64,000 nt of DNA from a virus. The notes below the pieces were generated by a model. That model was given only the letters and a program-made list of their open reading frames with translations, ran no database searches and was not told where the DNA came from. The translations under genes were made by a program, and so were the position numbers. Shown here one piece after another: positions 2,914-26,200 of the stretch (positions are counted from its first letter, which is position 1; every line of letters begins with the position of its first letter). Location: positions 146,327 through 210,326 of IMG/VR virus record IMGVR_UViG_3300010430_000003; one strand, given 5' to 3'.

Positions 2914-3561
2914 ATGGGAAAGAAGAACGAAGAGACGACCGAAGAGACGCCGAGCAACATGGAGCGCATTTCTTCTGCGCTGGCCCTGCTGGAGAACGTA
3001 CAGCCTCCTGCGACGTCAGACGAAGTCAAGTCGATCAAGGCCGAGTCCGATAAGCTGAGCAAGGCGCGTGAGGCGCTGAGCGCTGCTGGTCTCGACACTG
3101 ACGCGGTCGATGCGAAGATCGCGGAACTCGGCGAAGCGGAAGCGAAAGCGGACGCGGGTCGCTCGGAACTGGTTGTTGCGCTTGCTCATGTTGAGCGCTT
3201 CACCAAGATTCTGGGTCAACGGTGCTCCGGTGCTAGGGTGGAGAGTGTCCGGGAGAAGTTCGCCGGAATCATCGAGGCCGGAATTCCTGAGTTTCCGGGA
3301 CCGTGTGAAATGAAGACCCTCGCAAGCGGTAAGAAGCGGGCTGTCCACGGTGGACGGGCAACGCAGATCGTTACCGCTCTCCTCTCGATGTCGGAGAATG
3401 GTCGGCTGCGCGTCAGCATCGAAGCCATGGCGGAAGCCCTGCTGGACGTCGACGATACTTTCGGCGACCTCGAAGGTGCTGCCCAGCAGTGTCGCACGGT
3501 ACTTCAGAACTATGCCGACGTGTGGACGTCTGATAGTTCCTTCGTGTTCTCGCAGAATTAG
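2914..3561 (+). CDS. GC-rich hypothetical protein (215 aa)
   Basis: I do not recognise this protein. It starts at ATG 2914 after a plausible ribosome-binding site (CGAGGT). The N-terminus is Glu/Thr-rich, residues about 25-110 are Ala/Glu/Lys-rich and probably helical (repeated AEAKAD-like segments), and the C-terminal half is mixed with several Cys. Codon third positions are strongly G/C, unlike every neighbour. This suggests recent acquisition or a gene under a different expression constraint. No paralog was seen in the window. Long antisense ORFs over it are best explained by its composition. Confidence 0.7.
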   Translation: MGKKNEETTEETPSNMERISSALALLENVQPPATSDEVKSIKAESDKLSKAREALSAAGLDTDAVDAKIAELGEAEAKADAGRSELVVALAHVERFTKILGQRCSGARVESVREKFAGIIEAGIPEFPGPCEMKTLASGKKRAVHGGRATQIVTALLSMSENGRLRVSIEAMAEALLDVDDTFGDLEGAAQQCRTVLQNYADVWTSDSSFVFSQN

Positions 3562-5579: not shown

Positions 5580-5764
5580 TGCTGCTCCAATCTTCGTTGT
5601 TCTCTTAACAATGTCTTAAGAGAATGAATATTATTGGTATTGAAAAGCCTCATATTTATGTGGTAATATGAATGTGGAAAAATAAAATTATCAACCCAGA
5701 AAGGGTTGAGGAAAAATCCAAGCCTTCGCAACATTGCACAATGTATTTTTTGATTGATATTCAT
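5576..5764 (-). CDS. MNIN-family small protein (62 aa)
   Basis: Function unknown. MNINQKIHCAMLRRLGFF start, aromatic centre and a basic C-terminus (LLREQRRLEQQ). The start shares its first base with the last base of the upstream stop; ATGA overlap downstream. Confidence 0.75.
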   Translation of the reverse strand: MNINQKIHCAMLRRLGFFLNPFWVDNFIFPHSYYHINMRLFNTNNIHSLKTLLREQRRLEQQ

Positions 5765-6006
5765 TAGTAAGGGTAACGTGAAAAGGTTCTATAATTATCA
5801 AAATCAATCTTTTCTTCCATATTCCGCCACCGGGCATCATTCTCATTTCTCATTAATGTTAAATATGAATCCATCCAACCATTTGTGTATCTTGCATTCG
5901 GTTTAATATCATAATATGGTTTTATATAATATAAAGAATCAAAGTGACAACAAATCTGTGCCATCTTTTGTATCATTGCATATTTTATTATAAGATTGAT
6001 ATTCAT
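5764..6006 (-). CDS. MNIN-family small protein (80 aa)
   Basis: Function unknown. MNINLIIKYAMIQKMAQI start; central Tyr-rich segment; GWMDSYLTLMRNEND matches the W-[ILM]-x-[SP]YL C-terminal sub-motif. The extra C-terminal tail is acidic. Confidence 0.75.
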   Translation of the reverse strand: MNINLIIKYAMIQKMAQICCHFDSLYYIKPYYDIKPNARYTNGWMDSYLTLMRNENDARWRNMEEKIDFDNYRTFSRYPY

Positions 6007-6012
6007 GTTGGG

Positions 6013-6312
6013 TTATTCATCTGGAATCTGATAACGCGAGAACTGCAATTCTGATGGGGAATCTTCAAAAGGGTAAGCATCATGGATAACCTTCACATGC
6101 CACCCTGCTTTCGTAAAGTCCTCAACAAGTCGATCAATATATAAGGTTAACTTGTATACATTAAAGGTCGAACATCCGCTCATGAGCCGTTGATTGACTT
6201 CCTTGACCACCTCTTCATAAGATGGTGCCAAATGTCGTTCCACTTCATCAGGAGTAACAGGTATGGGTTGGTTTTCTCGCTTTTGCGGTCGTTTTATGGG
6301 TTTGTTAAACAT
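6013..6312 (-). CDS. Hypothetical protein (99 aa)
   Basis: No recognised family. The ATG at 6312 (MFNKPIKRPQK) was chosen over 6360 because it limits the overlap with the upstream gene to 8 bases. Basic Pro-rich N-terminus, then a mixed alpha/beta-looking body. Confidence 0.55.
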   Translation of the reverse strand: MFNKPIKRPQKRENQPIPVTPDEVERHLAPSYEEVVKEVNQRLMSGCSTFNVYKLTLYIDRLVEDFTKAGWHVKVIHDAYPFEDSPSELQFSRYQIPDE

Positions 6313-6643
6313 GCTTGTTTTCCCATGGCAGAGACCATCCGTAATCATCGCCTTCTTCAAACATGCGTTCTGGATCGAGATTTAGAACTTTGCATAACTC
6401 TTCTTCAATTCTTTCGGGATCTGGATCATGAACAACGTGTTCACTGACAGCATCTGCAATCCGTTCAACCAATTTGCGTGCTTCGTCGCGTTCTTCTTTT
6501 AATTGCGTCATATTGGCTTCATATTCTTTATGAAGTTCTTCGATATGATCGGCAACAACATCACCAACCCATCCCTCAACATAATTGCCAGCAAGCTCTC
6601 TTACCCAATCCGCATTCTGTTTATGTCGCTTGTTATCGCTCAT
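6305..6643 (-). CDS. Hypothetical coiled-coil protein (112 aa)
   Basis: No recognised family. Residues about 35-70 are Glu/Lys/Arg-rich with heptad spacing (ELHKEYEANMTQLKEERDEA), suggesting a short coiled coil. Acidic C-terminus. Part of the leftward accessory operon. Confidence 0.6.
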   Translation of the reverse strand: MSDNKRHKQNADWVRELAGNYVEGWVGDVVADHIEELHKEYEANMTQLKEERDEARKLVERIADAVSEHVVHDPDPERIEEELCKVLNLDPERMFEEGDDYGWSLPWENKHV

Positions 6644-6651
6644 TGAATGTC

Positions 6652-6864
6652 CTAGACTTGCATTCCCAAAGGATTCATGATGGTTAAAATTGTGGTTGTG
6701 ATCGCAAGCATTAGAATAAAAAGAAATACTGGTTTTGCCAAATTGGGTGCTTTCTTTGTGAAAAATTCATCGAGATATGCCACTATAATAAGAATTAGGG
6801 ATAACGAACAGATCACAGTGATGACAATCACAAAATACATAAAGAACATTAAAAGATCAATCAT
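6652..6864 (-). CDS. Small membrane protein (70 aa)
   Basis: Two hydrophobic segments (about residues 3-28 and 43-62) separated by a charged loop (DEFFTKKAPNLAK) predict a two-pass inner-membrane protein. The start at 6864 overlaps the upstream stop by 8 bases; the upstream in-frame ATG lies deep inside that gene. Function unknown. Confidence 0.6.
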   Translation of the reverse strand: MIDLLMFFMYFVIVITVICSLSLILIIVAYLDEFFTKKAPNLAKPVFLFILMLAITTTILTIMNPLGMQV

Positions 6865-7210
6865 CACCACCTCTTTTTTCAAGACATCTGTGAGCACATT
6901 CAAGTTCATCTTTCAATCGATCAATCTCCATGACGCACTCTCCATACTCATTTGATAGATAGATAAATGCTTCATCAAGCAGTGCGATAGACGCAGATTG
7001 CTCCGCAATGATCTTATCTTTCTCATTGGATTCAAATAGCTTTGGATTCATTGCTTTCACACCTTCCCCGAAACAATCCAAACATAATTGAGTGGAGTAT
7101 GATGTAATCAAATATCGTGGCATCACATCTTCTCGATATTCTTTGCAGGACCTGCATGTTTTGAATTTGATTCGGTCAATCTCAAGACTCATTTTGATTC
7201 TAGAAATCAT
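6857..7210 (-). CDS. Hypothetical protein with CxxC pair (117 aa)
   Basis: CRSCKEY and CLDCFGE, about 23 residues apart near the N-terminus, form a likely zinc-binding ribbon. The C-terminal half looks helical (IALLDEAFIYLSNEYGE, then RLKDELECAHRCLEKR). The ATG at 7210 gives a TGATG junction with the upstream gene. Function unknown. Confidence 0.6.
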   Translation of the reverse strand: MISRIKMSLEIDRIKFKTCRSCKEYREDVMPRYLITSYSTQLCLDCFGEGVKAMNPKLFESNEKDKIIAEQSASIALLDEAFIYLSNEYGECVMEIDRLKDELECAHRCLEKRGGDD

Positions 7211-7521
7211 CAATAATCCGCGTTGTCGTTAAACCATTTCCAAAAGGAATCGGTTTTCAAACCATAAACTGCAAACACAAGAGCTTCAAAAGCATACTGG
7301 ACATGATCTCTGCCGGGATATCCATCATCAAGAATTGATTCATTCATCTCTTTAATGAATGATTTAAGACTCTTAACATTAACGTCTTTATCATCAACCA
7401 TTGTTGGTGGCCCATTTTCATTTCGCTTTTCTTTGAATGTGGCAATTTCCCGTAATTCTTCCGGAGTTAATTCATCTAAACTCTTTCTCAATAAAGTGTT
7501 GTATTCAAAAATGTCAGTCAT
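7210..7521 (-). CDS. Hypothetical protein (103 aa)
   Basis: No recognised family; acidic and soluble. The middle has a Lys/Asp-rich stretch. It overlaps its upstream neighbour by 8 bases and is coupled to the CxxC protein downstream. Confidence 0.55.
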   Translation of the reverse strand: MTDIFEYNTLLRKSLDELTPEELREIATFKEKRNENGPPTMVDDKDVNVKSLKSFIKEMNESILDDGYPGRDHVQYAFEALVFAVYGLKTDSFWKWFNDNADY

Positions 7522-7708
7522 CGTTTTCCTCCGGCAATAACACGCCCCAATATAGTGCGCACCATCCTTCCATTAACACCAACTCAATATCCTCACCGTA
7601 TTCATCAGCAAGCTGTTCGGCAATGTTTGCAAGCTCTTTGATGGTGATTCTATCCCACTCACTATCAGGAAGGTTTTTGTAAATTCGTTTCCATTTCGTT
7701 TTCTTCAT
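7514..7708 (-). CDS. Hypothetical protein (64 aa), first gene after a promoter
   Basis: No recognised family; acidic after a Lys-rich start (MKKTKWKRIYKN). It directly follows the promoter at 7715-7742 with a very short leader, so it is probably the first gene of an early transcript. Confidence 0.6.
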   Translation of the reverse strand: MKKTKWKRIYKNLPDSEWDRITIKELANIAEQLADEYGEDIELVLMEGWCALYWGVLLPEENDD

Positions 7709-7714
7709 ATAAAT

Positions 7715-7742
7715 ATTATATCAAAAATCTGTGCAGATTCAA
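7715..7742 (-). promoter_or_regulatory. Sigma-70-type promoter TTGAAT-N16-TATAAT
   Basis: On the - strand, TTGAAT (7742-7737) and TATAAT (7720-7715) are separated by exactly 16 bases. The same arrangement recurs at six other gene starts in the window, all leftward. It would drive the gene at 7708. Confidence 0.75.
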
Positions 7743-7763
7743 GAATAATTAAATATCGAATGT

Positions 7764-7973
7764 TTATGAGGTCGACGTTCGCCGGGCATTCGCGTCTGCA
7801 GCCCTTACACGACATGACAAAATATAGATAGTTCTTTCTAATTCTTGAAATTTAAAATTTTTAATATAATCAGTTCTATCTGCACACAACCTTTTGTGAC
7901 TTATAAAAGAACGAACCCAATTATTATCGATTGATGCAAGAAACATGTGAGTTAAAATCAAATTATGATTCAT
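7764..7973 (-). CDS. MNIN-family small protein (69 aa)
   Basis: Function unknown. MNHNLILTHMFLASID matches the motif. The start at 7973 was preferred over 7991 for motif and spacing. The C-terminus is Arg/Ala-rich. It overlaps the upstream GTG-started member by 11 bases. Confidence 0.65.
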   Translation of the reverse strand: MNHNLILTHMFLASIDNNWVRSFISHKRLCADRTDYIKNFKFQELERTIYILSCRVRAADANARRTSTS

Positions 7974-8130
7974 ATAAAATCTCGCATGCAACAGCGTTAT
8001 AATAAAGTTGAAGAGGTTGCTGTTTATGAAATCTATTATAGCTTCTTCTTAAGAGAAGATAATCTTGCGTTAATGCATATGAATCATTTATATACGCATA
8101 TGCCACAATTAAATTCACATTAGTGTTCAC
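7963..8130 (-). CDS. MNIN-family small protein, GTG start (55 aa)
   Basis: Function unknown; short enough to be skipped by length filters. N-terminus VNTNVNLIVAYAYI (GTG at 8130; a second GTG at 8118 is possible). It continues with DYLLLRRSYNRF, typical family character. Overlap with the next family gene supports it. Confidence 0.65.
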   Translation of the reverse strand: MNTNVNLIVAYAYINDSYALTQDYLLLRRSYNRFHKQQPLQLYYNAVACEILYES

Positions 8131-8187
8131 ATTCTTTCACGGTGTATGTTAAAGTTGTTTCTCGTGTTTTGGGATCATCTCATCTCC

Positions 8188-8547
8188 TTAAAAAATTTCA
8201 TCATAATGATTGATTACAGGAAATCCTGCATCTGCTATCCTTCCTCGTATTTCAGCATAGAACAATATATCTTCTTTATTCCGTGCATTGCAGCCACCGC
8301 TATGATCGAGACCATCAGAAACCATTACAGCGGAGACATCCATATCAGCTTTCATCTTCCCATAATCACCATTCCAAGTCCCTTTTATGGGTTCAAATCC
8401 CATTACATAGATTGCGTAATCAGAATCAGGTGATTTTGTGATATATAGATTTTCTGTATCGTAATCTCCTCCGGGTGAATTGATTTCAATGTTGCAATCA
8501 AAATCATCAAAGAGATCAATAACTTCTTGTGTTTTCCATCGTTTCAT
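8188..8547 (-). CDS. Hypothetical protein (119 aa)
   Basis: No recognised family; acidic and soluble, with a Gly/Asp-rich INSPGGDYDTENLYI segment. It overlaps the upstream membrane-protein gene by four bases (ATGA). Confidence 0.6.
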   Translation of the reverse strand: MKRWKTQEVIDLFDDFDCNIEINSPGGDYDTENLYITKSPDSDYAIYVMGFEPIKGTWNGDYGKMKADMDVSAVMVSDGLDHSGGCNARNKEDILFYAEIRGRIADAGFPVINHYDEIF

Positions 8548-8726
8548 TTTCTTCTCATACTTGAAATTAAAAAAGGCACCCCTGTTCCGGCCATAAGTAC
8601 AACTGTTAAAGCTGTGCGTTCACCAAAAGTGATTGCAAAGTCTGCAAAAAGAGCAATGATTGAAACCCCAATTATGCATGAAATAAGCGTTGTGAATAAA
8701 CCATCATTCTCATTTTCTTTTTTCAT
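8544..8726 (-). CDS. Small membrane protein (60 aa)
   Basis: Lys/Glu-rich N-terminus, then two hydrophobic segments (about residues 11-30 and 37-54) and a basic end (SSMRRK). Probably spans the inner membrane twice. Function unknown. Confidence 0.6.
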   Translation of the reverse strand: MKKENENDGLFTTLISCIIGVSIIALFADFAITFGERTALTVVLMAGTGVPFLISSMRRK

Positions 8727-8727
8727 C

Positions 8728-8937
8728 TCAAAGTCCCATGAAGATTTGCAATCTTGATCGTTTATTATGAAGAATCATAGAACAAAAATCACGATAAGCA
8801 TATTTTATTCTAATCTCACGATATGAATGATATTTCTGATAGAAATCCATTTCAACTTGAGTCTTCCATATTACAGGAACTCCTTGAATAACCATATTAT
8901 ACCCAACACACAAATTTATCATTGTATCTTTACACAT
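8728..8937 (-). CDS. MNIN-family-like small protein (69 aa)
   Basis: Function unknown. The motif is displaced by a few residues: MCKDTMINLCVGYNMVI. The C-terminal half, YAYRDFCSMILHNKRSR, has the aromatic/basic pattern. It overlaps the upstream member by 8 bases. Confidence 0.6.
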   Translation of the reverse strand: MCKDTMINLCVGYNMVIQGVPVIWKTQVEMDFYQKYHSYREIRIKYAYRDFCSMILHNKRSRLQIFMGL

Positions 8938-9115
8938 TTATATTTTTCAATGTTCGCAAATAAGAAGTGAGCCAATTCTCAACTTTATTGTGATAAAAGA
9001 AGCTAGAACAAAAATATTTTGGCCAATAAAAACTATCCCATGATGTGAATCCGAGCACTTCTATTGTTGTCGTTCTTCTAAGAAAACGATCACGCACAAC
9101 TTTATTAATATCCAT
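8930..9115 (-). CDS. MNIN-family small protein (61 aa)
   Basis: Function unknown. MDINKVVRDRFLRRTT start; aromatic centre; C-terminal NWLTSYLRTLKN is the WI-x-SYL sub-motif. The ATG at 9115 was chosen over 9202 because the longer form would lie across the upstream family gene. Confidence 0.7.
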   Translation of the reverse strand: MDINKVVRDRFLRRTTTIEVLGFTSWDSFYWPKYFCSSFFYHNKVENWLTSYLRTLKNINV

Positions 9116-9302
9116 ATTTTTTAAAATGCCTAAAGAAGATTTGAGGACGAAAGCAATTATATTTAAGCATGGATTGATAATTATCATATGAACAGTAAAC
9201 ATCTTTCATTGAATAACATTCCAACGGTTCAAAGGGATAGGTAGGATGCCACCAATACCATATTAATCGGTTAGCAAGAATAGTATTAATATTTGAATTC
9301 AT
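9105..9302 (-). CDS. MNIN-family small protein (65 aa)
   Basis: Function unknown. MNSNINTILANRLIWYWW start, almost identical in its first six residues to the upstream neighbour (MNSNIN), which points to tandem duplication followed by divergence. Cys/Tyr-rich centre. Confidence 0.75.
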   Translation of the reverse strand: MNSNINTILANRLIWYWWHPTYPFEPLECYSMKDVYCSYDNYQSMLKYNCFRPQIFFRHFKKYGY

Positions 9303-9534
9303 TGATTTTCAACATATAATGTTCATACCATCTTTTTAACCACCGTTCACCACAATTAATAGGATCAGTATATTCTCTAAAAAATATCAAGAAGTGACTT
9401 CTACCTTTTCTTGGGTGACTTTCATAACCGACACCGGGAAAATTTCTATCACCTAAATTAAAATTGGGATTGCTAGGTGAATATAATTCCAAATATATTC
9501 GGCAGGCTAGAAGTTGATTGATGTTGGAATTCAT
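9286..9534 (-). CDS. MNIN-family small protein (82 aa)
   Basis: Function unknown. MNSNINQLLACRIYLELY start; Pro/Gly/Asn-rich middle; C-terminus RWLKRWYEHYMLK. It overlaps the next paralog by 17 bases. Confidence 0.75.
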   Translation of the reverse strand: MNSNINQLLACRIYLELYSPSNPNFNLGDRNFPGVGYESHPRKGRSHFLIFFREYTDPINCGERWLKRWYEHYMLKINEFKY

Positions 9535-9540
9535 CGAATT

Positions 9541-9762
9541 TCAATTAGGGGAATGAAAAACAAAACAATAGTTAGGAATTGACCATATTGGTCCATCTTC
9601 ATAAACCCACGCATATGTTTCATTCCCTTCCATTATAAAGGAATCATATTGATATGTGATTTTAAAATCATGCCATGAAAACCATGTAGTTAAAAACTTT
9701 GCGGCAATGGCATAATTAATTTCTTGCGAGGTTGGATTATACTTTGGAAAGATGTTATACAT
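9541..9762 (-). CDS. MNIN-family-like protein (73 aa)
   Basis: Function unknown. The motif core is shifted inward by about 12 residues (QEINYAIAAKFLTTWF). The rest is Trp/Tyr-rich. It overlaps the tiny upstream gene by 8 bases. Confidence 0.6.
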   Translation of the reverse strand: MYNIFPKYNPTSQEINYAIAAKFLTTWFSWHDFKITYQYDSFIMEGNETYAWVYEDGPIWSIPNYCFVFHSPN

Positions 9763-9838
9763 CTGAACAAATCAGAATGATATAACAATTCCACAATTCT
9801 TTAACCCACTCATGTTCTTGAGGTGTTAAATCTTTCAT
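9755..9838 (-). CDS. Mini-protein (27 aa), C-terminal duplicate of a neighbour
   Basis: This is a 27-codon ORF beginning MKDLTPQEHEWVKELWNC. Its start shares a base with the preceding stop (TAATG) and its stop overlaps the next start. Residues 8-16 (EHEWVKELW) resemble EREWVEDLW near the end of the protein at 10392-10787, so it looks like a detached copy of that tail. Without that resemblance it would be too short to call. Confidence 0.5.
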   Translation of the reverse strand: MKDLTPQEHEWVKELWNCYIILICSDV

Positions 9839-10209
9839 TATACTTCCGTAAGATTGCACATAATATCTTCTGCGAATCGCTTGTTGGAAATTACACTACA
9901 AATTTCAGTAATCTCATCACAAAAAACATCAAAAGCCTCTTCTCCTTCTTCCCAAAGATTGAGGAGAAGTTGGCTTGCTTCATTCCCAACAGATCGTGTG
10001 GGCCAAGCAATATCGTATGCTTCTAGGTGATCATGACCTTCATTCGCCGCATCAACAATAATTCGAGCAATGAGTTTAACATCGTCGAGCGATTTAATTC
10101 CAAATTCAAACGCTTCTACAGAACTTTTGTCTTGAATAGAATACGTTCCAAACTCCATATAAATGGGGAAAATATAATCAAGATATTCTTGTGTAGTTTT
10201 GATTTTCAC
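9838..10209 (-). CDS. Hypothetical protein (123 aa)
   Basis: No recognised family; acidic and probably all-helical in its C-terminal half. It overlaps the upstream MNIN-family gene by 32 bases. Confidence 0.6.
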   Translation of the reverse strand: MKIKTTQEYLDYIFPIYMEFGTYSIQDKSSVEAFEFGIKSLDDVKLIARIIVDAANEGHDHLEAYDIAWPTRSVGNEASQLLLNLWEEGEEAFDVFCDEITEICSVISNKRFAEDIMCNLTEV

Positions 10210-10390
10210 TTATTATTCCTCGCAGTTTCGTTTTGAGAAAATTAATCCAATTTGAATGCCAATTAATAGTTTCTATTGCTTGATAATATTCCCATGCGCA
10301 ATAACGCCGAGATTTCAGGTCAATATCATAATACTCTCCATCTCTAAAAAGCATAATAGCAATATATTGATTAATCATGGTGTCATTCAT
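10178..10390 (-). CDS. MNIN-family small protein (70 aa)
   Basis: Function unknown. MNDTMINQYIAIMLFRDG start (core I-N-x-x-IA-x-x-x-F). The Tyr/Trp-rich centre contains NWINFLKTKLRG, a version of the C-terminal W-I motif. Confidence 0.7.
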   Translation of the reverse strand: MNDTMINQYIAIMLFRDGEYYDIDLKSRRYCAWEYYQAIETINWHSNWINFLKTKLRGIISENQNYTRIS

Positions 10391-10391
10391 G

Positions 10392-10787
10392 CTAACTTGC
10401 TGATTCTAATGCCCAATAAACACACCGCCATAAATCTTCAACCCATTCTCGCTCATCTGCAGAAATGGCTTCATTGTCAGGATCAATTGCCATTCGGAAC
10501 CATTCGGGTTCAATATCTCCCCAACCTCTTTCTTCGAGCGTTTCATAAAAGGTTTGCAAGAAGATGTTTGTCTTTTCATTCATGTCAGGCTTAGGAACAT
10601 ACATCACCCATCGCTCTTTGGCAAAGAAAGCGAGTTTATCATTATCATTTCTTTTGCAATTAAAACCATTGGTTTCATGAACTTTTGTAAATTCAATTAA
10701 CATTGAACCTGATTCACCTTCATCAAGGGCAATAGAGAAAACATCACCAACTTCGAGATTTTCAAACTTTACTTTTTCCATTATCAT
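10392..10787 (-). CDS. Hypothetical protein (131 aa)
   Basis: No recognised family. The N-terminal half looks like a small beta-barrel (FENLEVGDVFSIALDEGE). The C-terminal half is helical and acidic, ending REWVEDLWRCVYWALES. That tail recurs in the 27-residue gene at 9755-9838. It is the last gene before the RNA cluster. Confidence 0.6.
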   Translation of the reverse strand: MIMEKVKFENLEVGDVFSIALDEGESGSMLIEFTKVHETNGFNCKRNDNDKLAFFAKERWVMYVPKPDMNEKTNIFLQTFYETLEERGWGDIEPEWFRMAIDPDNEAISADEREWVEDLWRCVYWALESAS

Positions 10788-10849
10788 CCTTTTTCATAAG
10801 ATTTAAAATTACTTCTTCTTTTTTCATTTTAAAGCTCGCAAAGATTGGA

Positions 10850-10919
10850 TATCAACTGAGGGTTTCGAACCTTCATCCTCCCCATCACAGGGCACTTTAC
10901 CACTTAAGTTAAGTTGATA
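10850..10919 (-). tRNA. tRNA-like gene in normal order, anticodon unclear (possibly His GTG)
   Basis: Acceptor strands TATCAAC (10919-10913) and GTTGATA (10856-10850) pair perfectly. A D-arm with GTGGTA and a T-arm GAAGG-TTCGAAA-CCCTC are present. The anticodon arm is poor: CTGTGAT would give GTG, but the stem has two mismatches. It may be a degenerate or unusual tRNA. 70 bases, no encoded CCA. Confidence 0.5.
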
Positions 10920-10922
10920 GAC

Positions 10923-10956
10923 GGCAGGCAATCTTGTATCCTAGACAACGCCTGCC
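10923..10956 (-). other. Stable hairpin between RNA elements
   Basis: GGCAGGC and GCCTGCC form a 7-bp stem, with TTGT/ACAA pairing again inside. It has no following T-run in either direction, so it is more likely an RNA processing or structural element than an intrinsic terminator. Confidence 0.5.
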
Positions 10957-10989
10957 TAAGTTTAGTGTCTTTCAGCACTTCGCCACGTT

Positions 10990-11105
10990 TAAGTTGCATC
11001 ATTAGATTAAAATCGTGCGTCCTTCCTTTAGACGACAGGAACATAAGAAAGAAAGTTCCCGGTGGGATTCGAACCCACATACATTGATTATTTTGATGAA
11101 ACATT
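10990..11105 (-). ncRNA. Permuted tRNA-like element, unit 2
   Basis: Read leftward, the parts occur in reversed order. A T-arm comes first (GTGGG-TTCGAAT-CCCAC, 11078-11062), then 3' acceptor strand CGGGAAC (11061-11055) and a 12-base loop. Next come 5' acceptor strand GTTCCTG (11042-11036), TC, and a D-arm GTC-TAAAGGAAG-GAC (11033-11019). The acceptor strands form 7 pairs with one G-U. Bases outside the arms can pair partly (TGATG with CATCA). No partner in normal order exists for either half. No CCA is encoded. Confidence 0.55.
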
Positions 11106-11148
11106 TGATGCGAAGATAACACTTGGTTGCTCAATTTTGGAGTAAGAA

Positions 11149-11262
11149 TTTCATGTTAATAAAGAACTGACTGCTGCCTCTACCAATTGGGCTACCCGCC
11201 CCCAATTTATGGGCGGAGATGGATTCGAACCACCACTGACACAATCTTTAGTTGACAAGAAA
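11149..11262 (-). ncRNA. Permuted tRNA-like element, unit 1
   Basis: Same reversed layout as unit 2. The T-arm is GGTGG-TTCGAAT-CCATC (11234-11218), the 3' acceptor strand TCCGCCC (11217-11211), then a 9-base loop. The 5' acceptor strand is GGGCGGG (11201-11195), followed by TA and a D-arm with GCC/GGC and AATTGGTAGA (11192-11176). The acceptor forms 7 pairs with one G-U. Outside the arms, 11149-11165 and 11245-11262 pair over about 15 of 18 positions, making a long helix where an anticodon stem would be. The acceptor lacks the G3-U70 pair typical of tmRNA. Confidence 0.55.
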
Positions 11263-11275
11263 CTTGAGCTTGCTA

Positions 11276-11311
11276 TGTGCCTGCACCGATCTTTCGGTGG
11301 TCTTAGGCACA
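11276..11311 (-). other. Nested hairpin just after the DUF7873 gene
   Basis: TGTGCCT (11311-11305) pairs with AGGCACA (11282-11276), and inside it CACCG pairs with CGGTG. It lies a few bases after the stop codon at 11318 and immediately before the permuted RNA units, without a T-run. It could be a processing site or the first domain of the RNA. Confidence 0.55.
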
Positions 11312-11317
11312 CTCCAT

Positions 11318-12058
11318 TTATTGTCCGAAGACAAAGTTGAAAAGTTTATCACCAATCTTCTTGGTTTCCACTTCTGTTTCATTTGCATTGCAGCGAGCTT
11401 CTTTAACTGCAATTCGCAGTTTTGCAATCTTTTCAGTCCATGCTCGCTTTTGATTTTGTGTAATCCCTCCATGTTGCTGAATGGCAGTCCATACACCTTG
11501 GATCACATCTTCAGTGATAAGTTGTGTTTGCGCCGGATGTTCGGGAGTTGCATCGTAAAGGACAATTGCTCTCTGTACCTTTTTGGTGGAGTTTCGATGT
11601 TCCGGGTTGGAAACAAAGATCTTTTCATTGCTTGAGGATGGTGTCCATTCTCGATCTGTTCCCAACACAGGTGCGTGTCGAACAAATGTTTCAAGGTCTT
11701 CAAATTGCTTCTCAAGGAATAGCAATAGAGATACAGGACAATCGTGTACCAACGTCTCGCCTTCTACAACGATATCAGAAGAAGCCTTTACGTTACCATA
11801 GTCCTTAGACGCTGTGAGGTCAATAAGGCGCACTGTTGCCTCTTGAAAGTCTTCTACGGCGTCTTGCACCGTCATTTGAACCCTTGCTACTTCATCTGGC
11901 AATTGTTCGCCTTCTTCGTCCTTTGGTTCATATTTCCGAACCATGCCAGTGAACAGGGCTTCCTTTTGGAGTTTCTTATACAGTTCAGTCCTTGTCCTTT
12001 CAAGGCGTTTCTTTTCTGAACTTTCGACGGCTACAATTTGATGCAGTTTGCTTGACAT
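11318..12058 (-). CDS. DUF7873-like protein (246 aa)
   Basis: It resembles, from memory, an uncharacterised bacterial and phage family (DUF7873). The family is marked by an N-terminal SKLHQIVAVE, then a YEPKDEEGEQLP segment, a V-x-DCPVSLLLFLEKQ-x-DL segment and a C-terminal NANETEVE. All are present at about residues 3-12, 43-54, 105-123 and 223-230. Length matches the family. Its function is unknown to me. G+C is somewhat higher than in neighbours, consistent with transfer. It follows the promoter at 12111-12138 and RBS GAGAGG; its transcript would continue into the RNA cluster. Confidence 0.75.
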   Translation of the reverse strand: MSSKLHQIVAVESSEKKRLERTRTELYKKLQKEALFTGMVRKYEPKDEEGEQLPDEVARVQMTVQDAVEDFQEATVRLIDLTASKDYGNVKASSDIVVEGETLVHDCPVSLLLFLEKQFEDLETFVRHAPVLGTDREWTPSSSNEKIFVSNPEHRNSTKKVQRAIVLYDATPEHPAQTQLITEDVIQGVWTAIQQHGGITQNQKRAWTEKIAKLRIAVKEARCNANETEVETKKIGDKLFNFVFGQ

Positions 12059-12110
12059 TTCAAACCTCTCTTGTTTTGATAAGTTTCAGTTTCATAATCT
12101 TGATAATAAA

Positions 12111-12138
12111 ATTATATTATTTTTTGAGCAAATTTCAA
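12111..12138 (-). promoter_or_regulatory. Sigma-70-type promoter TTGAAA-N16-TATAAT
   Basis: TTGAAA (12138-12133) and TATAAT (12116-12111) with a 16-base spacer, upstream of the DUF7873-like gene and, beyond it, the RNA cluster. Confidence 0.75.
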
Positions 12139-12148
12139 TGACAATATA

Positions 12149-12409
12149 TTAATATCTTCTATTGGCATTGGCAATAATGATAGGACATGAGATCATTTCT
12201 GAATATGAAGAGGACTTGAAAAAAATTAGGTGATAATACCAGAAAATATCTCTTTTTTGAAATTTAGCCCAACCAGTTAAATTTCTTAATAAGAAGAAGT
12301 CATGATTTAAAGGTCGCAAACAAAAAATACTATAAATACTATATGATGATAAAACGGTGTTTTGCAATACACAATGAGCAATATATTTATTCACATAATG
12401 GTTATTCAT
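12149..12409 (-). CDS. MNIN-family small protein (86 aa)
   Basis: Function unknown. MNNHYVNKYIAHCVLQNT start (N-x-x-IA core). Phe/Tyr/Ser-rich body. Its C-terminal end is close to the promoter of the next transcript. It overlaps the upstream family gene by 8 bases. Confidence 0.65.
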   Translation of the reverse strand: MNNHYVNKYIAHCVLQNTVLSSYSIYSIFCLRPLNHDFFLLRNLTGWAKFQKRDIFWYYHLIFFKSSSYSEMISCPIIIANANRRY

Positions 12410-12629
12410 AATTAACAGTTTTTATTTCACCATCCTTTGTGTCAAGCCAGTCCCACAGTCGATCATCACCACGCATTATTACCAAATACGGATCAATCCA
12501 ACCACATGTTAATTCTCCATATGTTCTAGCAACACAATAAGAATGAGTGTATTCCATGATTTTAAAAGTAAACATGGAACGAATCATTCTTGTAAGAAAC
12601 ATTTTATATATTTCTTTATTTAAGTTCAT
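12402..12629 (-). CDS. MNIN-family small protein (75 aa)
   Basis: Function unknown. MNLNKEIYKMFLTRMIRS start; GWIDPYLVIMRGDD matches GWMDSYLTLMRNEN of the gene at 5764, showing a conserved C-terminal W-[IM]-D-x-YL-x-x-MR motif. First gene after the promoter at 12649-12676. Confidence 0.75.
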   Translation of the reverse strand: MNLNKEIYKMFLTRMIRSMFTFKIMEYTHSYCVARTYGELTCGWIDPYLVIMRGDDRLWDWLDTKDGEIKTVNYE

Positions 12630-12648
12630 GTCTTCATCTCTTAAATAA

Positions 12649-12676
12649 ATTATACTGTTTTCTGTACAGAATTCAA
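12649..12676 (-). promoter_or_regulatory. Sigma-70-type promoter TTGAAT-N16-TATAAT
   Basis: TTGAAT (12676-12671) and TATAAT (12654-12649), 16-base spacer. It overlaps the 3' end of the upstream family gene and drives the gene starting at 12629. Confidence 0.75.
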
Positions 12677-12891
12677 GAACAGTATTTTATCAAACGGTGT
12701 AATGTATCGTCTTTAATAATTCTCGCCCACTCGTTTTGGTCTTTAATGTGAATTGAGGCGAACTTAAATCTTGTGTAAGGTCTTACCTTATCACTTTCGA
12801 GATGGGAGAAAATTCCGTAGAACTGGAAGACTTCGGAATAATAAAAATCTGCAAGAATATATCCTCTTGCTATTTGATTGACATTCATCAT
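12673..12891 (-). CDS. MNIN-family small protein (72 aa)
   Basis: Function unknown. MMNVNQIARGYILADFYY start; ends LHRLIKYCS. Coupled to the upstream gene by an ATGATGA overlap. Confidence 0.7.
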   Translation of the reverse strand: MMNVNQIARGYILADFYYSEVFQFYGIFSHLESDKVRPYTRFKFASIHIKDQNEWARIIKDDTLHRLIKYCS

Positions 12892-13094
12892 CTTCTCTTT
12901 ACAATGGTGAGGTCTTTCGAATCAAAGAAAGGTATGGTTCCATATAATCTTTTAATCATTTCTTCATAATCTACACTGCGAACTGAAAAGGAAATTCTAT
13001 CACAGTTTAGATGATTTGTAAAACTATATAAAATTTGAGGTTCTGCCATAAGAATAAATCTGGCGATTTGCACGTTAATTTTAACAGCATTCAT
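12888..13094 (-). CDS. MNIN-family small protein (68 aa)
   Basis: Function unknown. MNAVKINVQIARFILMAE start, with the motif pushed in by four residues; basic C-terminus (IVKRR). ATGA overlap with the upstream membrane protein. Confidence 0.7.
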   Translation of the reverse strand: MNAVKINVQIARFILMAEPQILYSFTNHLNCDRISFSVRSVDYEEMIKRLYGTIPFFDSKDLTIVKRR

Positions 13095-13528
13095 ACTTTA
13101 ATCTTTTCTGCTGCTCTATGAATTCTCTCCTCAAGATGATCATGGTCTTCATCTAAATCAAGAATAATTCCTTCTAATTCCTTCTTCTTTGTTCTCAACC
13201 TCTTTATTTCTTTTGCCCTTCGATCAAGAAGAATTGTGCGATACCACATATCCCTTTTTGGAACATAAACTTCTTTTTCTTCACCATCAATGAATCTTAT
13301 TGTATGGGTATGAGGAATGACTTCTTCGATTTTTTCCCATTTGTAATAATTACATGTTTTTTGTTTCTTTGTTTGCTGAATATCCCAAACAGGCGAATCA
13401 TGATCAAGATCAGCTATAGCAACTTCCATATCTTTTTGCCAAAGATATTCAATTATGGAGTAATTGAATAAAATAGATAATCCAAGCGCAGCGGCGAAAA
13501 CTGCAATTATGGCTATAATGAATAACAT
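13091..13528 (-). CDS. Membrane-anchored coiled-coil protein (145 aa)
   Basis: One N-terminal hydrophobic segment (about residues 2-22) is followed by a soluble domain. A Lys/Glu/Arg-rich stretch from about residue 105 to the end has heptad character. Predicted single-pass anchor with a cytoplasmic coiled coil, similar in layout to phage spanin- or lysis-associated proteins, but no lysis cassette is visible nearby. Function unknown. Confidence 0.6.
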   Translation of the reverse strand: MLFIIAIIAVFAAALGLSILFNYSIIEYLWQKDMEVAIADLDHDSPVWDIQQTKKQKTCNYYKWEKIEEVIPHTHTIRFIDGEEKEVYVPKRDMWYRTILLDRRAKEIKRLRTKKKELEGIILDLDEDHDHLEERIHRAAEKIKV

Positions 13529-13536
13529 TTATACCC

Positions 13537-13956
13537 TTAATGGTTTGGGAAATCATTTAAATTGAAATCTTTAAAATCAACTAAATCTAAAGAAGAAATA
13601 GACACTTTTTTATTCAATGGTTTTCTCATTCGATTTCCACGTTTATCATATAAAACACGAACTTCCACAATTTGTTCTTTATCATTTGTACAGGTATACC
13701 ACCAATGCTGATTTTGTCTTACATAAGCTTCCCCAAACCATCTTGCTTTATGGTTACTTCTAACCTCTTGACCCCACACTAAAGGTTTGTGTGGAATCCT
13801 TTTCAGAGAGGAAACAGCATAACTTAATTCAGATTCTATATCATGTGATATGAGAGTGTATTGGAATTCGCATGACCGATTATTTGAAACCCACCTTTCT
13901 CCAAGAAATCCTCTTTCATACATTAAAAATGTATACGCAACCTTTTTATTAATCAT
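13537..13956 (-). CDS. MNIN-family-like longer protein (139 aa)
   Basis: Function unknown. The N-terminus MINKKVAYTFLMYERGF follows the motif. The body is twice the usual length, with an extra basic domain (VLYDKRGNRMRKPLNKK). It may be a family member fused to a second domain. ATGA overlap downstream. Confidence 0.55.
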   Translation of the reverse strand: MINKKVAYTFLMYERGFLGERWVSNNRSCEFQYTLISHDIESELSYAVSSLKRIPHKPLVWGQEVRSNHKARWFGEAYVRQNQHWWYTCTNDKEQIVEVRVLYDKRGNRMRKPLNKKVSISSLDLVDFKDFNLNDFPNH

Positions 13957-14147
13957 TTAAATTTAATCAATTTTGAAGAACTGTGTGTTAAAAATGTATG
14001 TACATTTTTATACATAATGTCAGACATATACTTACGAGTAAGAGTTGTATGACTAATTGTCAATCTACCGGGACTTGGAGTTGACGACCAAATATATTCC
14101 CACTCTGATGAGATCATCATGAAAGCCACTTGAAAATTAATTTTCAT
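13953..14147 (-). CDS. MNIN-family small protein (64 aa)
   Basis: Function unknown. MKINFQVAFMMISSEWEY start; Ser/Thr-rich centre; ends in a basic SSSKLIKFK. It overlaps genes on both sides. Confidence 0.7.
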   Translation of the reverse strand: MKINFQVAFMMISSEWEYIWSSTPSPGRLTISHTTLTRKYMSDIMYKNVHTFLTHSSSKLIKFK

Positions 14148-14346
14148 TTTGAGTCAATCTCAAATTATTTGTATATTCTTGCATAAAATGCATCATATAT
14201 ATCTCGAAAAAGGTAGAGGAATGATTAGTGTAGAGAAAAGAAATAGAGTGCTCCAAAAAGAGCTTTGAACCAGCCATCGCTACATTATGATGATTCGAAT
14301 GAAATGTTATAGAATACATTACTTTTATTCGAATTATCTTATTCAT
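14137..14346 (-). CDS. MNIN-family-like small protein (69 aa)
   Basis: Function unknown. N-terminus MNKIIRIKVMYSITFH is a diverged form of the motif; His/Ser/Phe-rich body. It overlaps the next member by 11 bases. Confidence 0.6.
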   Translation of the reverse strand: MNKIIRIKVMYSITFHSNHHNVAMAGSKLFLEHSISFLYTNHSSTFFEIYMMHFMQEYTNNLRLTQNEN

Positions 14347-14352
14347 CTGAAT

Positions 14353-15420
14353 TCACACCCACGCAGAGGTATATAGAGAACTTGCATAGCCTCTTCGTGT
14401 GAAGGTAACCTTTACACCCTCTTCAGAAAGATAGGTATATGTGTATTTGTCATCATTGATATCAGAAAGATTGGAAGGATATAGAATGACTGACTCACTG
14501 TGACCCCAATAACCTTCTCGAACATCTTCAGCTTTTTCATTCCATTGAAGAAAGATATCTATCTCTCCATTAAAAATATCTCCGTAATGTGATGTCTCAC
14601 GGTAAACTCGCCCGTCTTTCTCAGCAAGAATTTTGTAACTATATTCTTGATTGCCAAAGGAAACGTTCAACATGTCCAAAACTTCTTTGGCAGTTTCATT
14701 ATATCGGTTCATTTCTTCAACCATTGCTTGAAGCATATCAAAGTTGAATTTCCCGTTAATTTTTGCAAGGCGAAGAATTGATTTAATTTCATTCTTATCA
14801 TTAAGGCGTTCATTGCAATATTCGAGAATCGCATCTTCTTCCAAACCTTTATAGTCAAGGTTATAAAACAAGCGACCGGGGCGATTATTCATATTTTTAT
14901 CAATGCCCCATTTATCATTGGCAGTCAAAAGAAACAGTCTTTTTCCTGTGAAAACTCCATCAAGAAGAGTTAGCATTGCTTCCTGTTCTTCCTTGTTATA
15001 AACCTTTTCAAATTCATCAAATAGAACAACAGCAGGTTCATCAATTGACGCAATGAAAGAGTTAAAGATCTCTCCGTGAAGAGCACCATTAACAACAATT
15101 GTTGATACCCCTTCTTGAGCCAATGCCACACTAATTTTCTTGGCAAGGAGGCTTTTGCCAGATCCCTTTTCACCAACCATTAATACTCCTGTACTTTCTG
15201 TACGAGAGTTAAATGTATTGATAATTCTGTCAGAGCGATCACAAATATTGCCATAAAACTTTTCAGGGAGTATGAAATCACTCATCTCTTCCAGATAGTA
15301 TTCACCTGAAATTGGATTAAACTTAACTAGATAGTTCCCGACGGGCAGCTTCTTGCGGATATCAATTGCACTATCAGGAGTTACTATAAAAGTGTTACCA
15401 TTCTTGATGTAATTTGTCAT
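14353..15420 (-). CDS. AAA+ ATPase (355 aa)
   Basis: ATP-dependent remodelling enzyme of the AAA+ class, substrate unknown. Walker A GEKGSGKS at about residues 83-90 and Walker B VVLFDEFEK at about 131-139. A sensor-like LLTAND and a KNMNNRPGRLFY segment follow, as in FtsH/Vps4-type cores. An N-terminal 75 residues and a C-terminal beta-rich domain are not recognised. The start at 15420 (MTNYIKNG) was chosen because upstream Met codons lie inside the preceding gene. It may act on host or virion complexes. Neighbours give no clue. Confidence 0.8.
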   Translation of the reverse strand: MTNYIKNGNTFIVTPDSAIDIRKKLPVGNYLVKFNPISGEYYLEEMSDFILPEKFYGNICDRSDRIINTFNSRTESTGVLMVGEKGSGKSLLAKKISVALAQEGVSTIVVNGALHGEIFNSFIASIDEPAVVLFDEFEKVYNKEEQEAMLTLLDGVFTGKRLFLLTANDKWGIDKNMNNRPGRLFYNLDYKGLEEDAILEYCNERLNDKNEIKSILRLAKINGKFNFDMLQAMVEEMNRYNETAKEVLDMLNVSFGNQEYSYKILAEKDGRVYRETSHYGDIFNGEIDIFLQWNEKAEDVREGYWGHSESVILYPSNLSDINDDKYTYTYLSEEGVKVTFTRRGYASSLYTSAWV

Positions 15421-15433
15421 TGTTTGTCCTTTT

Positions 15434-15826
15434 TTATAAACAATATACTTGTGATTCTTGGTTAGAAGCTGTTGAGTCAAAAATGAATGTCTCGCCATTA
15501 TCCCAACGAGTATCTCTCAAATACCGATCCACTTCTTCATCAATAAGCAAATCGTTAGGCACAACAGAGAGGTATTTTGCGATATCCACAACCTCTTTAT
15601 TCTTTAAGGCTCCTTCCTCAATTTTCTCTAATCCATTATAGGACCAATGATTTTGATGTAAAAGATAGTGTGTTGGAATCATCGCGTTGATTAATTCACA
15701 AAGCTTAACTTTATTGCTTGTTAGGGCACTATTGCCATTATTAGAAGCATATTGAATGCTCCGAAGAATTCCATTCCAAGTATAATAAAAATCATTGTCG
15801 CCGGTTACGATTGCAAGCTTTTTCAT
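15434..15826 (-). CDS. Hypothetical protein (130 aa), first gene after a promoter
   Basis: No recognised family. Starts MKKLAIVTGDNDFYYTW, which resembles the first strand of a nucleotide- or metal-binding alpha/beta fold. RBS AGGAG precedes the start, and the promoter lies at 15847-15874. Likely co-transcribed with the AAA+ gene. Confidence 0.6.
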   Translation of the reverse strand: MKKLAIVTGDNDFYYTWNGILRSIQYASNNGNSALTSNKVKLCELINAMIPTHYLLHQNHWSYNGLEKIEEGALKNKEVVDIAKYLSVVPNDLLIDEEVDRYLRDTRWDNGETFIFDSTASNQESQVYCL

Positions 15827-15846
15827 ATATCTCCTTTGTTGGAAAT

Positions 15847-15874
15847 ATTATATTAAAATTTGAACGAAAAACAA
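15847..15874 (-). promoter_or_regulatory. Sigma-70-type promoter TTGTTT-N16-TATAAT
   Basis: TTGTTT (15874-15869) and TATAAT (15852-15847) separated by 16 bases; weaker -35 than its relatives. Drives the gene at 15826 and the AAA+ ATPase. Confidence 0.65.
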
Positions 15875-15884
15875 CAAAACAATA

Positions 15885-16115
15885 TTAATGAAAAGCTTTA
15901 TAAGAAAGCTCGCAGAAAAGACCTTTATGAGTACAATGATACATGGTGGGTTTTTTAAGTTTATTCATCATCTTTATTCTTGAAGATCTGTCACATAGAT
16001 ACTTGGAATGAATTTCAAATGAATGATGTTTGATCAATCCGAAGTGCGTGAAATGGTTCCAATCAAAATCGTCATGCATGAAAAACCCTGCAATCATTAA
16101 ATTAATGTAATTCAT
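15885..16115 (-). CDS. MNIN-family small protein (76 aa)
   Basis: Function unknown. MNYINLMIAGFFMHDDFDW start. It shares NLMI-x-x-x-F and a following DFDW-x-HF with the gene at 16302, so the two are recent paralogs. The second of two Met codons was chosen by motif. Confidence 0.75.
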   Translation of the reverse strand: MNYINLMIAGFFMHDDFDWNHFTHFGLIKHHSFEIHSKYLCDRSSRIKMMNKLKKPTMYHCTHKGLFCELSYKAFH

Positions 16116-16305
16116 TATCAAACTGTCTCATTGCATGGATGCAAACTCTAATTGAACTGTGCAAATATCCCTCATACCATTCAATAAATGTTGTATATCG
16201 ATGATCTGATATACAAGAACCTTCTCTAGCAGAGTTGTTCTTAATATCAGGAAGTTCGTAATCTAATACAAAACAATTGGAGACCAACAAGTTAATGTGA
16301 TTCAT
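16102..16305 (-). CDS. MNIN-family small protein (67 aa)
   Basis: Function unknown. MNHINLLVSNCFVLDYE start; WYEGYLHSSIRV in the C-terminal half is a variant of the W-x-x-YL motif. Overlaps both neighbours. Confidence 0.75.
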   Translation of the reverse strand: MNHINLLVSNCFVLDYELPDIKNNSAREGSCISDHRYTTFIEWYEGYLHSSIRVCIHAMRQFDNELH

Positions 16306-23286: not shown

Positions 23287-26200
23287 ATGGGTGGTCTCGC
23301 TGGTCGTATCAAATATCTTTATGAAGGTGATTTAACCTTCAAAGAACTTAAAACTATTCTTGAAAATATTTCATTAAGTCACCTTCCTCTTTATGAAAAA
23401 GTGGATGGATTTAATTGCTATTTTTCTTGCAGAAGAGGTATGCCTGTAATGGCTCGAAATCTGACCGAAGCACGGTCAGGTGGTTTATCCATCATTGAAC
23501 TATCAAATCGAGAATTTAAAGGTGGCAAGAAAGTAAAGAAGGTTTTTATTGAAGCCCTCAAAAATTTCTCCAAAGATTTCAGACTCTTAGATAAGAAAAT
23601 TTTTGAAAGCGATGGGAATCAAGTTTTTTATAATTTTGAAATCGTTGACAAAAATACGAATCGTTTGTTTGAATATGATAGTAACGGTCTTGTCTTGCAC
23701 AACTCTGGTCATTTCTGCATTGTTGAAAATAATAAACATTTTGTCAATGGCGATGGTTTTAGAACAGGAACTATCGGAACCAAATATATTAAGCATAATT
23801 TCAAAACCTCTCTTAGAGAAAATTCATATTTTGATGGAAGTTCATTCATACAAAGAATTGATGAAGTAATGCAATCAGTTGGATTGTCTGAACTCAATTC
23901 AATTTCAGAATTGAAAGAGCAAGAGAGACTCAAAAAGATTCTTAATGAGTTTTCTAATAATTTAATAAACTCTCTTAAAAGTAATTTTGTTGACAGTCAA
24001 GAAGAAAAAGTAACTCAATTCAAAGATCGAGTCAAAGAAGCTGTTGATTGTCTCCTTGAATATTCAGGTCCAAATCGAGCACAGGTCGTTGAAAAAACTA
24101 TTCATTATTTAAATCAATTCCCTGCCATTGACTCAATCAACTCATGCATTGAAGGGGTTGTTTTTGAACATAATGGCGAAATGTATAAAATGACTGGTTA
24201 TTATAGACCAATAAATCAACTTTATGGCTTTTATCAAAAGACGCTAAAGGAATTCGATTCAGGTCGAATGTATCCCATTGAGCCAAGCTCTTATAATGTT
24301 GACGGTGTTTTGACACATCCTCAAGAAAAAACCATTGCAATCTTTCCTGGAAGTTTTAAACCGCCTCATGCGGGACATTATCGAATCATTGAGGAATTGA
24401 AAAAACTCAAAACTCCTGATGGTTTTCATATTTGTAATAAGATAATCATTTTAATTTCTAATAAGGCTAGAATGGCTCAATCTGATTCGAAAACGACATA
24501 TGTCACCGCTGAGATTGCTAAGGAGCTTTGGGATCTCTATGTGTCAAATGAAGATGCTCAAACTCGAATTGAAGTCCGAGTTGCAGATCACGACACTCCA
24601 ATTAAGTGTGTTTATGATATCATGCTTAATGAAATGTCTCCCGGCGAAACTTTGATGTTGGTCAAATCAGATAAAGACGCAAATTCAGATCGATTTAATG
24701 CTTTTTCAGATTTCTCGGATGAATATGACCTCGGTGTTAAGGTTATTGCAAAAGAAATGAATATCTTCTCTGCGGGAATTTCAGCTTCAAATATGCGAAA
24801 CTGGATTGCTGATGGAGATGAGGATAGGTTCAAGGGCTTCCTCCCAGATCACTTATCGTCAGAAGACCGCGCTCGTGGTTGGGAAATTGTTACCGGCGAA
24901 CAAGACGTTTCGTTATCGGAAGACGACTCTTTTTTTTTAAGTGAAGGGTATGACGCTCTTCTTGAAGGAGAAGGTGATAAACGTCTAAAGAGTGCCCTCC
25001 GGAAGAACCCAGATTATAAAGAACAAATTGAAGCTCTTGCTGCAGCTGATCCTTCCGGCAAAGGAAGGAAGCTTTTGCCTTGGATGGTTCGTGAGCTTGT
25101 GAAGTTTGATGGCGGGCGAACAAATGATATTATTGCTGTGATATCATTGTTTTGGCAATATCGGCAACGCTTTAAAGCAGCTTCCTATTCAACCGATGTT
25201 TTTTCATATTCCTTTGAAGAAATGTTGACTCTCCTTAAGAAATTAAGACTCACTCCTCGTTTTGATAAAATTAAGTCTCCTCTTCGAACATCCAATTATC
25301 CCGGTTCTTCTGTTGTGTATGAGGAAGAAGACTTTGCTGTGATCCGACCATATACCTTTGAAGCTTCATGCTATTTTGGAGAAGAGGGAAATTGGTGCAT
25401 CTCCACTGATGAGGGTCATTGGAATGACTATGTCGGAAATGAATCTGTTCATTATATCTTAATTAATGATTCAATTAAATTTGAAGAAGATGCTGATTCA
25501 AAAATTGATTTTGTTGTAAGACATGGTACAGTCATGGAGCTGTGGGATAAAGAAAATACTTCTCTTGATGAAGATTATGTGGAAGAGCTTCTTGGAGAAG
25601 AACTCTATAACAAAATTGAACAAGCAATTTTAACAGATTATGAACGTGATCCTGATAATGAAGAAACAGGTAATCGCAAAGAGTGGATTGAACTTCAATC
25701 TGAAATCGAAGCTGATTGGGATGATCGAAAATATATCACATGTGAGATATATGAATATGATTCGAATCAATTCCAGCTTCAAGCTTGGATTAATATTGAC
25801 TTCGATGAAACGAATATAAAATTAAAACCGCAAGAACGCTCTTGGCAAGCGTCTCAAAAATTTTCTCATGCAATTGAAGCAATTATTGATTATACAATCG
25901 AAGATGTTGAAGTTGATGGGAATACAATTCGTGGTAGAATATACCTTGATGATGTATTTACCCCTGATGACGCACAATATAGTTGGGAGCAATTAACAGA
26001 AAAAGATGATTATCTTCAAGGTGATGATCCCGATGACAACATTCGAGCCGTTGTTTATTCACTGTGGGAATATGATTTAATTGAAGGTGAAACAGAAAGT
26101 AAAATAGAAATCATCAAAAAGATTGATGAGCATGAGTTCAGATATCTTTTCGCCGATTTTGATGAAGATGAAGGGTTATCGGTTCAATTTACTCTCCACG

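Follow-up and report, generated by a model that had tools for sequence, protein, structure and literature searches.

Architecture and pairing of the RNA

The window analysed here is a 64,000-nt stretch of viral DNA, corresponding to bases 146327–210326 of the 210-kb IMG/VR record IMGVR_UViG_3300010430_000003, and coordinates refer to it unless another record is named. Within positions 11262–10990 it carries two tRNA-like units in tandem on the minus strand, and each is built in the order T-arm, 3′ acceptor strand, loop, 5′ acceptor strand and D-arm. A preliminary description of this DNA had reported the two permuted units at these positions, with seven acceptor pairs each and loops of 9–12 nt. 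These observations are confirmed, with 7 of 7 pairs in both units. However, that description treated the units as two separate elements and overlooked the fact that they belong to one RNA, as well as its partner, a gene of the DUF7873 family (PF25283).

Conservation extends well outside the units. Among 55–59 homologues, conserved segments are found upstream of the units, between them and downstream: G+C-rich hairpins open most homologues, an AAGCTGA../..CTCGCTCCAG..CTCAGC stem surrounds unit 1, and a covarying stem surrounds unit 2. The window shows counterparts of every conserved outer feature, i.e., the 5′ hairpins, both closing stems, the CTTAAACG motif and a GGnTA-type 3′ hairpin, which indicates an RNA of about 390 nt running from 11312 to 10923 (Table 1). 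The closing stem of module 1 in the window is the counterpart of the conserved AAGCTGA../..CTCAGC stem. A long helix joining the outer ends of unit 1, as described previously, is present in the minimum-energy fold of module 1 (−36.6 kcal/mol), and unit 2 also has a closing helix. Both units are parts of a single conserved RNA, not a pair of broken tRNAs.

Table 1. Features of the RNA and its partner gene, in window coordinates.
Feature	Position	Strand	Basis or detail
DUF7873 (PF25283) gene, 246 aa	11318..12058	-	Open reading frame (ORF); immediately 5′ of the RNA; Pfam match
Whole RNA	10923..11312	-	About 390 nt; extent and ends predicted from conserved segments in the homologues
5′ hairpin GTGTGCC..GGCACAT, inner CACCGAAAGATCGGTG	11275..11312	-	Minimum-energy fold
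Module 1: closing stem GCTCAAG.. / ..TTGAGC enclosing unit 1	11129..11269	-	Minimum-energy fold of the segment
Unit 1 T-arm GGTGG TTCGAAT CCATC	11218..11234	-	Permuted-unit scan and covariance model
Unit 1 acceptor, 7/7 pairs	11195..11217	-	TCCGCCC 11217-11211 (3′ strand), 9-nt loop, GGGCGGG 11201-11195 (5′ strand); covariation
Unit 1 D-arm GCC CAATTGGTAGA GGC	11176..11192	-	
Module 2: closing stem GCATCA 11111-11106 / TGATGC 11001-10996 enclosing unit 2	10996..11111	-	Fold; stem covaries in homologues
Unit 2 T-arm GTGGG TTCGAAT CCCAC	11062..11078	-	Permuted-unit scan and covariance model
Unit 2 acceptor, 7/7 pairs	11036..11061	-	CGGGAAC 11061-11055 (3′ strand), 12-nt loop, GTTCCTG 11042-11036 (5′ strand); covariation
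Unit 2 D-arm GTCT AAAGGAA GGAC	11019..11033	-	
Conserved CTTAAACG motif	10986..10993	-	Nearly invariant among homologues
3′ hairpin, GGATA loop	10923..10956	-	Fold −16.8 kcal/mol; in homologues, a G+C-rich stem bearing a GGnTA loop

The permuted acceptors pair beyond chance. In 59 non-redundant homologues, the mean number of own-unit acceptor pairs is 6.97 for unit 1 and 6.93 for unit 2, counts that are biased upward since the permuted-unit finder demanded at least 6 of 7 pairs; when the 3′ strands were dealt among the loci 2000 times, the means were 4.75 (maximum 5.24) and 4.09 (maximum 4.61), respectively. An unbiased check was provided by a T-loop…D-loop pattern search blind to the acceptors. 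Among its DNA matches with DUF7873 upstream, 53 of 57 have all seven acceptor pairs, whereas in matches without DUF7873, which are mostly ordinary neighbouring tRNAs, the pairs scatter around 4, and several of the exceptions carry DUF7873 by tblastn. The absence of normal-order partners, already pointed out in the preliminary description, is likewise borne out: across the 59 homologues, the 5′ strand of unit 1 and the 3′ strand of unit 2 form 4.32 pairs, i.e., the chance level.

Compensatory changes in relatives had been named beforehand as a test of the permuted structure, and they were found. For unit 1, each of the 7 acceptor pairs shows changes in both strands among 47 homologues, the window being excluded, and pairing holds in 99.4% of the acceptor cells, compared with 78.8% in shuffles and at most 53% when the partner strand is slid by up to 3 columns. 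For unit 2, RNAalifold arrives unprompted at a fold with the T-arm, acceptor and D-arm, in which 14 of the 16 pairs have changed in both strands. The proposed check with covariance models also came out positively: a model built without the window recovers unit 1 with 76.8 bits (E about 1e-24), and a second, with the window likewise excluded, recovers unit 2 with 57.7 bits (E about 5e-16), both E values being rough. In phage contigs and named phages, the permuted-unit script places tandem unit pairs about 140–165 nt apart.

A tRNA gene lies just 3′ of the RNA (10918–10850, minus strand); it was detected by Rfam (41.4 bits) and missed by ARAGORN, and it measures 69 nt overall, with an anticodon stem apparently shortened to 3 pairs. 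In unit 2, positions 11079–11058, covering the T-arm and the start of the acceptor, are identical over 22 bases to another tRNA gene of the same phage (141541–141562 of the record; L005 1453–1525), which suggests at the sequence level that unit 2 may have originated from a tRNA or exchanged with one. The adjoining tRNA gene and this identity would suit the idea that the units are what is left of ordinary tandem tRNAs after a rearrangement broke them, which the preliminary description had named as a possible refutation. However, the units are conserved and covary across phyla, and the remnant explanation is refuted.

Permuted tRNA genes occur in some algae and archaea, and the preliminary description likened the units to such genes and to permuted tmRNA. 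With the former, the units share a 3′ half placed before the 5′ half, a short intervening loop and acceptor pairing, and CCA (as NCCA) follows the 3′ acceptor strand at 19 of 59 loci in unit 1 and 16 of 59 in unit 2. Yet the RNA has no anticodon arm and mostly lacks CCA; when the halves are rejoined, the best 5-bp register for an anticodon stem pairs 62–64% of cells in 53 homologues, so that no conserved stem emerges. In addition, the closing stems are long and irregular, with partial conservation of their sequence, and a partner protein is encoded alongside almost constantly. It is therefore highly improbable that the locus holds two permuted tRNA genes whose precursors are circularised and cut to functional tRNAs, and this identity was rejected. 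ARAGORN finds no tRNA or tmRNA at the units.

The order of T-arm and acceptor and the helix joining the outer ends are also those of permuted tmRNA. The RNA differs from it in having two units with normal, full D-arms, and besides the negative ARAGORN result, an Rfam search of the region at E 10 returned no tmRNA; a permuted two-piece tmRNA, or a relative of it, has a negligible probability. As stated below, the only full-length Rfam match is YrlA. A coding tag of alternating Arg/Lys-Leu in the upstream repeats was considered as well and set aside, because frames and stops vary among homologues when inspected by eye, and the repeats are better read as closing stem. A scan with consensus promoters and terminators performed no better than shuffles.

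The DUF7873 gene and the distribution of the pair

The protein encoded 5′ of the RNA is a full-length member of the DUF7873 family, matching PF25283 with 278.7 bits (E 6e-83, cut-off 27) over profile positions 2–242 of 244. This is a Pfam family of unknown function: the protein has no matches in NCBIfam, PHROGs, PADLOC or PDB sequences, and a search of the open-licence literature returned no paper on it. Five of its positions are always basic (K16, K117, K160, K219 and R222) and three nearly always so (R41, K159 and R163). The AlphaFold model is confident, with a predicted local distance difference test (pLDDT) score of 93.9.

The RNA and DUF7873 occur together in a near-constant manner, in whichever direction the pairing is examined. 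From RNA to protein, choosing records solely for the RNA gave 45, of which 44 have a DUF7873 gene, and unit 1 normally lies 61–225 nt beyond the stop codon of that gene. From protein to RNA, a search by protein only covered 348 genomes (199 from the Actinomadura phylum, the other 149 from a planctomycete phylum), 15 of which encode DUF7873; among 14 intact loci, two modules lie alongside the gene in 11 and one in 3. Even the divergent DUF7873 proteins of Klebsiella, Vibrio and Rhizobium phages (about 30–33% identity) are followed directly by a permuted unit, and such a unit lies downstream at all fetched phage and plasmid DUF7873 loci except one, that of a Microcoleus phage (L326). At a deltaproteobacterial locus (L262), the RNA precedes the DUF7873 gene, so it is not merely a 3′ untranslated region, which argues for a separate, trans-acting RNA. 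Another locus (L075), with two permuted units and a short linker, has no DUF7873 in its 30-kb record and was kept out as uncertain.

The RNA–protein pair recurs in at least seven bacterial phyla and in many other phages. Named phages of Rhodococcus, Arthrobacter, Gordonia and Klebsiella carry the RNA without annotation, as do bacterial chromosomes and replicons, and the pattern scan located unit pairs in Lentzea, Actinomadura, Catenulispora, Planotetraspora, Streptomyces, one deltaproteobacterium, one planctomycete and one armatimonadote. DUF7873 itself occurs in 73 phage records, labelled hypothetical wherever the label was seen, with hosts among Gordonia, Arthrobacter, Rhodococcus, Vibrio, Rhizobium, Klebsiella/Serratia and cyanobacteria. 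Among the cellular hosts are Actinomycetota, Planctomycetota, Myxococcota and other deltaproteobacteria, Cyanobacteriota, Chloroflexota, Deinococcota and Armatimonadota.

No annotated record that was opened marks the RNA as such. In the Klebsiella jumbo phage vB_KpM_FBKp24, an annotated tRNA-Sup-TTA (L329 2518–2597) overlaps the DUF7873-linked RNA and is probably its second permuted unit, misannotated. Rfam and the open-licence literature contain no description of the RNA that we could find; the Y RNA survey of Chen et al. 2014 falls outside that search and may list DUF7873-linked RNA.

The phage copies of the RNA sit among tRNA genes, and these copies are many. Since the mimics retain the elbow and acceptor of a tRNA, they might serve the phage as a decoy, titrating host enzymes or toxins of defence systems that read those parts, and a role as competitive inhibitor has indeed been proposed for YrlA (PMC7790460). 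However, the RNA is also present in bacterial chromosomes of many phyla, and the DUF7873 protein tree intersperses viral with cellular copies, strongly supported branches forcing at least four changes. Moreover, an RNA without an anticodon is not a decoy for anticodon nucleases, and DUF7873 has no PADLOC match. A decoy function is thus unlikely.

Relation to YrlA and the proposed ribonucleoprotein

In bacterial YrlA RNA, a basal stem is joined to a tRNA-like domain comprising T-arm, acceptor and D-arm (PMC8394870), and the match of this domain to tRNA is circularly permuted (PMC13355120). The preliminary description knew of no established phage example of permuted elements. For permuted tRNAs this stands; for tRNA-mimicking Y RNAs it does not, as these are reported in phages in a passage of PMC7765460 that cites Sim and Wolin 2018.

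The sole credible full-length Rfam match of the window RNA is to YrlA (11261–11147, 24.2 bits, E 0.0099), below the gathering cut-off of 69, and nothing else credible appears among other families at E 1–10. Homologues of the RNA score 24–33 bits, also below the threshold. The low score is not decisive alone, because control YrlA-type loci from Ro60-bearing genomes reach 32–57 bits and are likewise under 69. Conversely, the covariance model of unit 1 (R1) detects genuine YrlA-type loci of Ro60 genomes (L056 and L267) with E values of about 1e-17. The second of these loci, which is bacterial, contains a pair of YrlA-like Y RNAs separated by about 1.6 kb (1483–1597 and 3109–3223, plus strand), in a genome with a Ro60 gene.

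As in YrlA (RF02553; PDB 6CU1), each unit combines a stem formed by the outer ends with a T-arm/acceptor/D-arm domain in permuted order. The RNA differs from YrlA in its two modules within about 390 nt, in the 5′ hairpin, the CTTAAACG motif and the 3′ GGnTA hairpin, and in its partner, which is DUF7873 here and Ro60/Rsr for YrlA. The Rfam gathering score is not reached, and there is no Ro60/Rsr gene with or near the RNA: a TROVE (Ro60) gene was not found in the 210-kb record, nor in the genomes of Rhodococcus phage NiceHouse and Arthrobacter phage Racecar. Therefore, the RNA is Y-RNA-like by topology but falls outside YrlA as it is defined.

A closer relationship can still be considered, in which the locus is an ordinary Ro60/YrlA member, i.e., a double Y RNA relying on a Ro60 protein from the host or from outside the assembled contig, with DUF7873 as an accessory. 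The shared topology and the sub-threshold YrlA matches of both units point this way, as do the TROVE genes found in 15 of 33 records and a planctomycete contig that bears both systems (described below). Nevertheless, the TROVE genes lie mostly on other contigs and are absent from the remaining 18 of 33, whereas DUF7873 is found almost without exception. Classical YrlA loci retrieved with the same pattern behave differently: they do come from genomes that contain TROVE, and two of them adjoin it. Membership of the Ro60/YrlA system is accordingly improbable.

One planctomycete contig from a metagenome-assembled genome (MAG) bears both systems (L207, 2222–3293 and 4885–7008, minus strand); DUF7873 and its RNA lie a few kb from a Ro60 gene (TROVE plus vWA) and a classical YrlA-type RNA. 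In an Oscillatoriales (cyanobacterial) MAG, a fragment of RlaP, a protein of the polymerase-beta family from an RNA repair pathway, is located directly 5′ of DUF7873 (L254, 2–436, plus strand). Both neighbourhoods offer contextual hints to the mechanism.

With a probability of roughly 0.7, we favour the reading that the locus encodes a DUF7873-partnered, Y-RNA-like ribonucleoprotein (RNP). It would consist of two components, the DUF7873 protein and, as its dedicated partner, the trans-acting RNA of about 390 nt. This RNA is formed by two YrlA-like modules in tandem, in each of which an irregular closing stem replaces the anticodon arm. Each module presents a permuted tRNA mimic with a T-arm, a 7-bp acceptor, a D-arm and a T-loop/D-loop elbow, having no anticodon and usually no CCA end. 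DUF7873 most likely binds the conserved closing stems, by analogy with Ro60, which binds the Y RNA stem. The two mimics, for their part, would probably serve as docking sites for enzymes that read the elbow and acceptor of tRNA, as suggested by the Ro60/YrlA/PNPase assembly (PMC8394870). This proposed logic of a stem-binding protein and a tRNA mimic docking an RNA enzyme would be that of the Ro60/Rsr–Y RNA–PNPase machine (RYPER); the difference is that this record has no TROVE protein, and DUF7873 is not TROVE by sequence. As for function, we suggest, only tentatively, that the RNA acts as a scaffold or gate in the decay or repair of RNA or in the maintenance of tRNAs. What is demonstrated here is the architecture of the RNA, its covariation and its near-constant pairing with DUF7873; the binding by DUF7873, the recruitment of tRNA-recognising enzymes and the role are inferences.

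Several observations weigh against the proposed RNP. Of the 14 DUF7873 genes picked by protein alone, 3 have a single module, and each of the RNA-repair-type neighbours turned up at one locus only of those examined. DUF7873 is slightly acidic (median isoelectric point 6.3), which is unusual for an RNA binder, although the eight positions named above are always or nearly always basic. Its AlphaFold model has no significant fold match in the PDB and among viral structures, so that nothing in the predicted structure points to RNA binding.

If the proposed RNP exists, a Pfam family without a function and an RNA missed or misannotated by tRNA finders would appear to explain each other. We consider it reasonably probable, with somewhat less confidence than for the RNP itself, that they represent a previously undescribed, Ro60-independent RNP class of many bacterial phyla and phages, in which DUF7873 and the double permuted mimic form a bivalent scaffold on tRNA-handling enzymes. 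A tRNA-mimicking RNP free of Ro60 would make permuted tRNA mimicry a general scaffold and not a peculiarity of Ro60, and large phages with tRNA arrays would own an unsuspected RNA machine.

Other features of the window

The surroundings of the locus (about 5700–16200, minus strand) contain numerous short ORFs that begin alike (MNxNIN.., MNVNQIA.. and MNLNKEI..), which resemble an expanded family of small phage proteins. On the plus strand, a 1943-aa ORF (23287–29118) carries, close to its start, a KVDG motif like that of nucleotidyltransferase ligases; a comparison with Pfam for an RNA ligase gave only a weak cytidylyltransferase match. Further along the same strand, a long block (38600–61700) consists of genes that, judged by sequence, resemble those for glycosyltransferases, sugar-nucleotide enzymes, and transketolase-like and adenylosuccinate-synthetase-like proteins.
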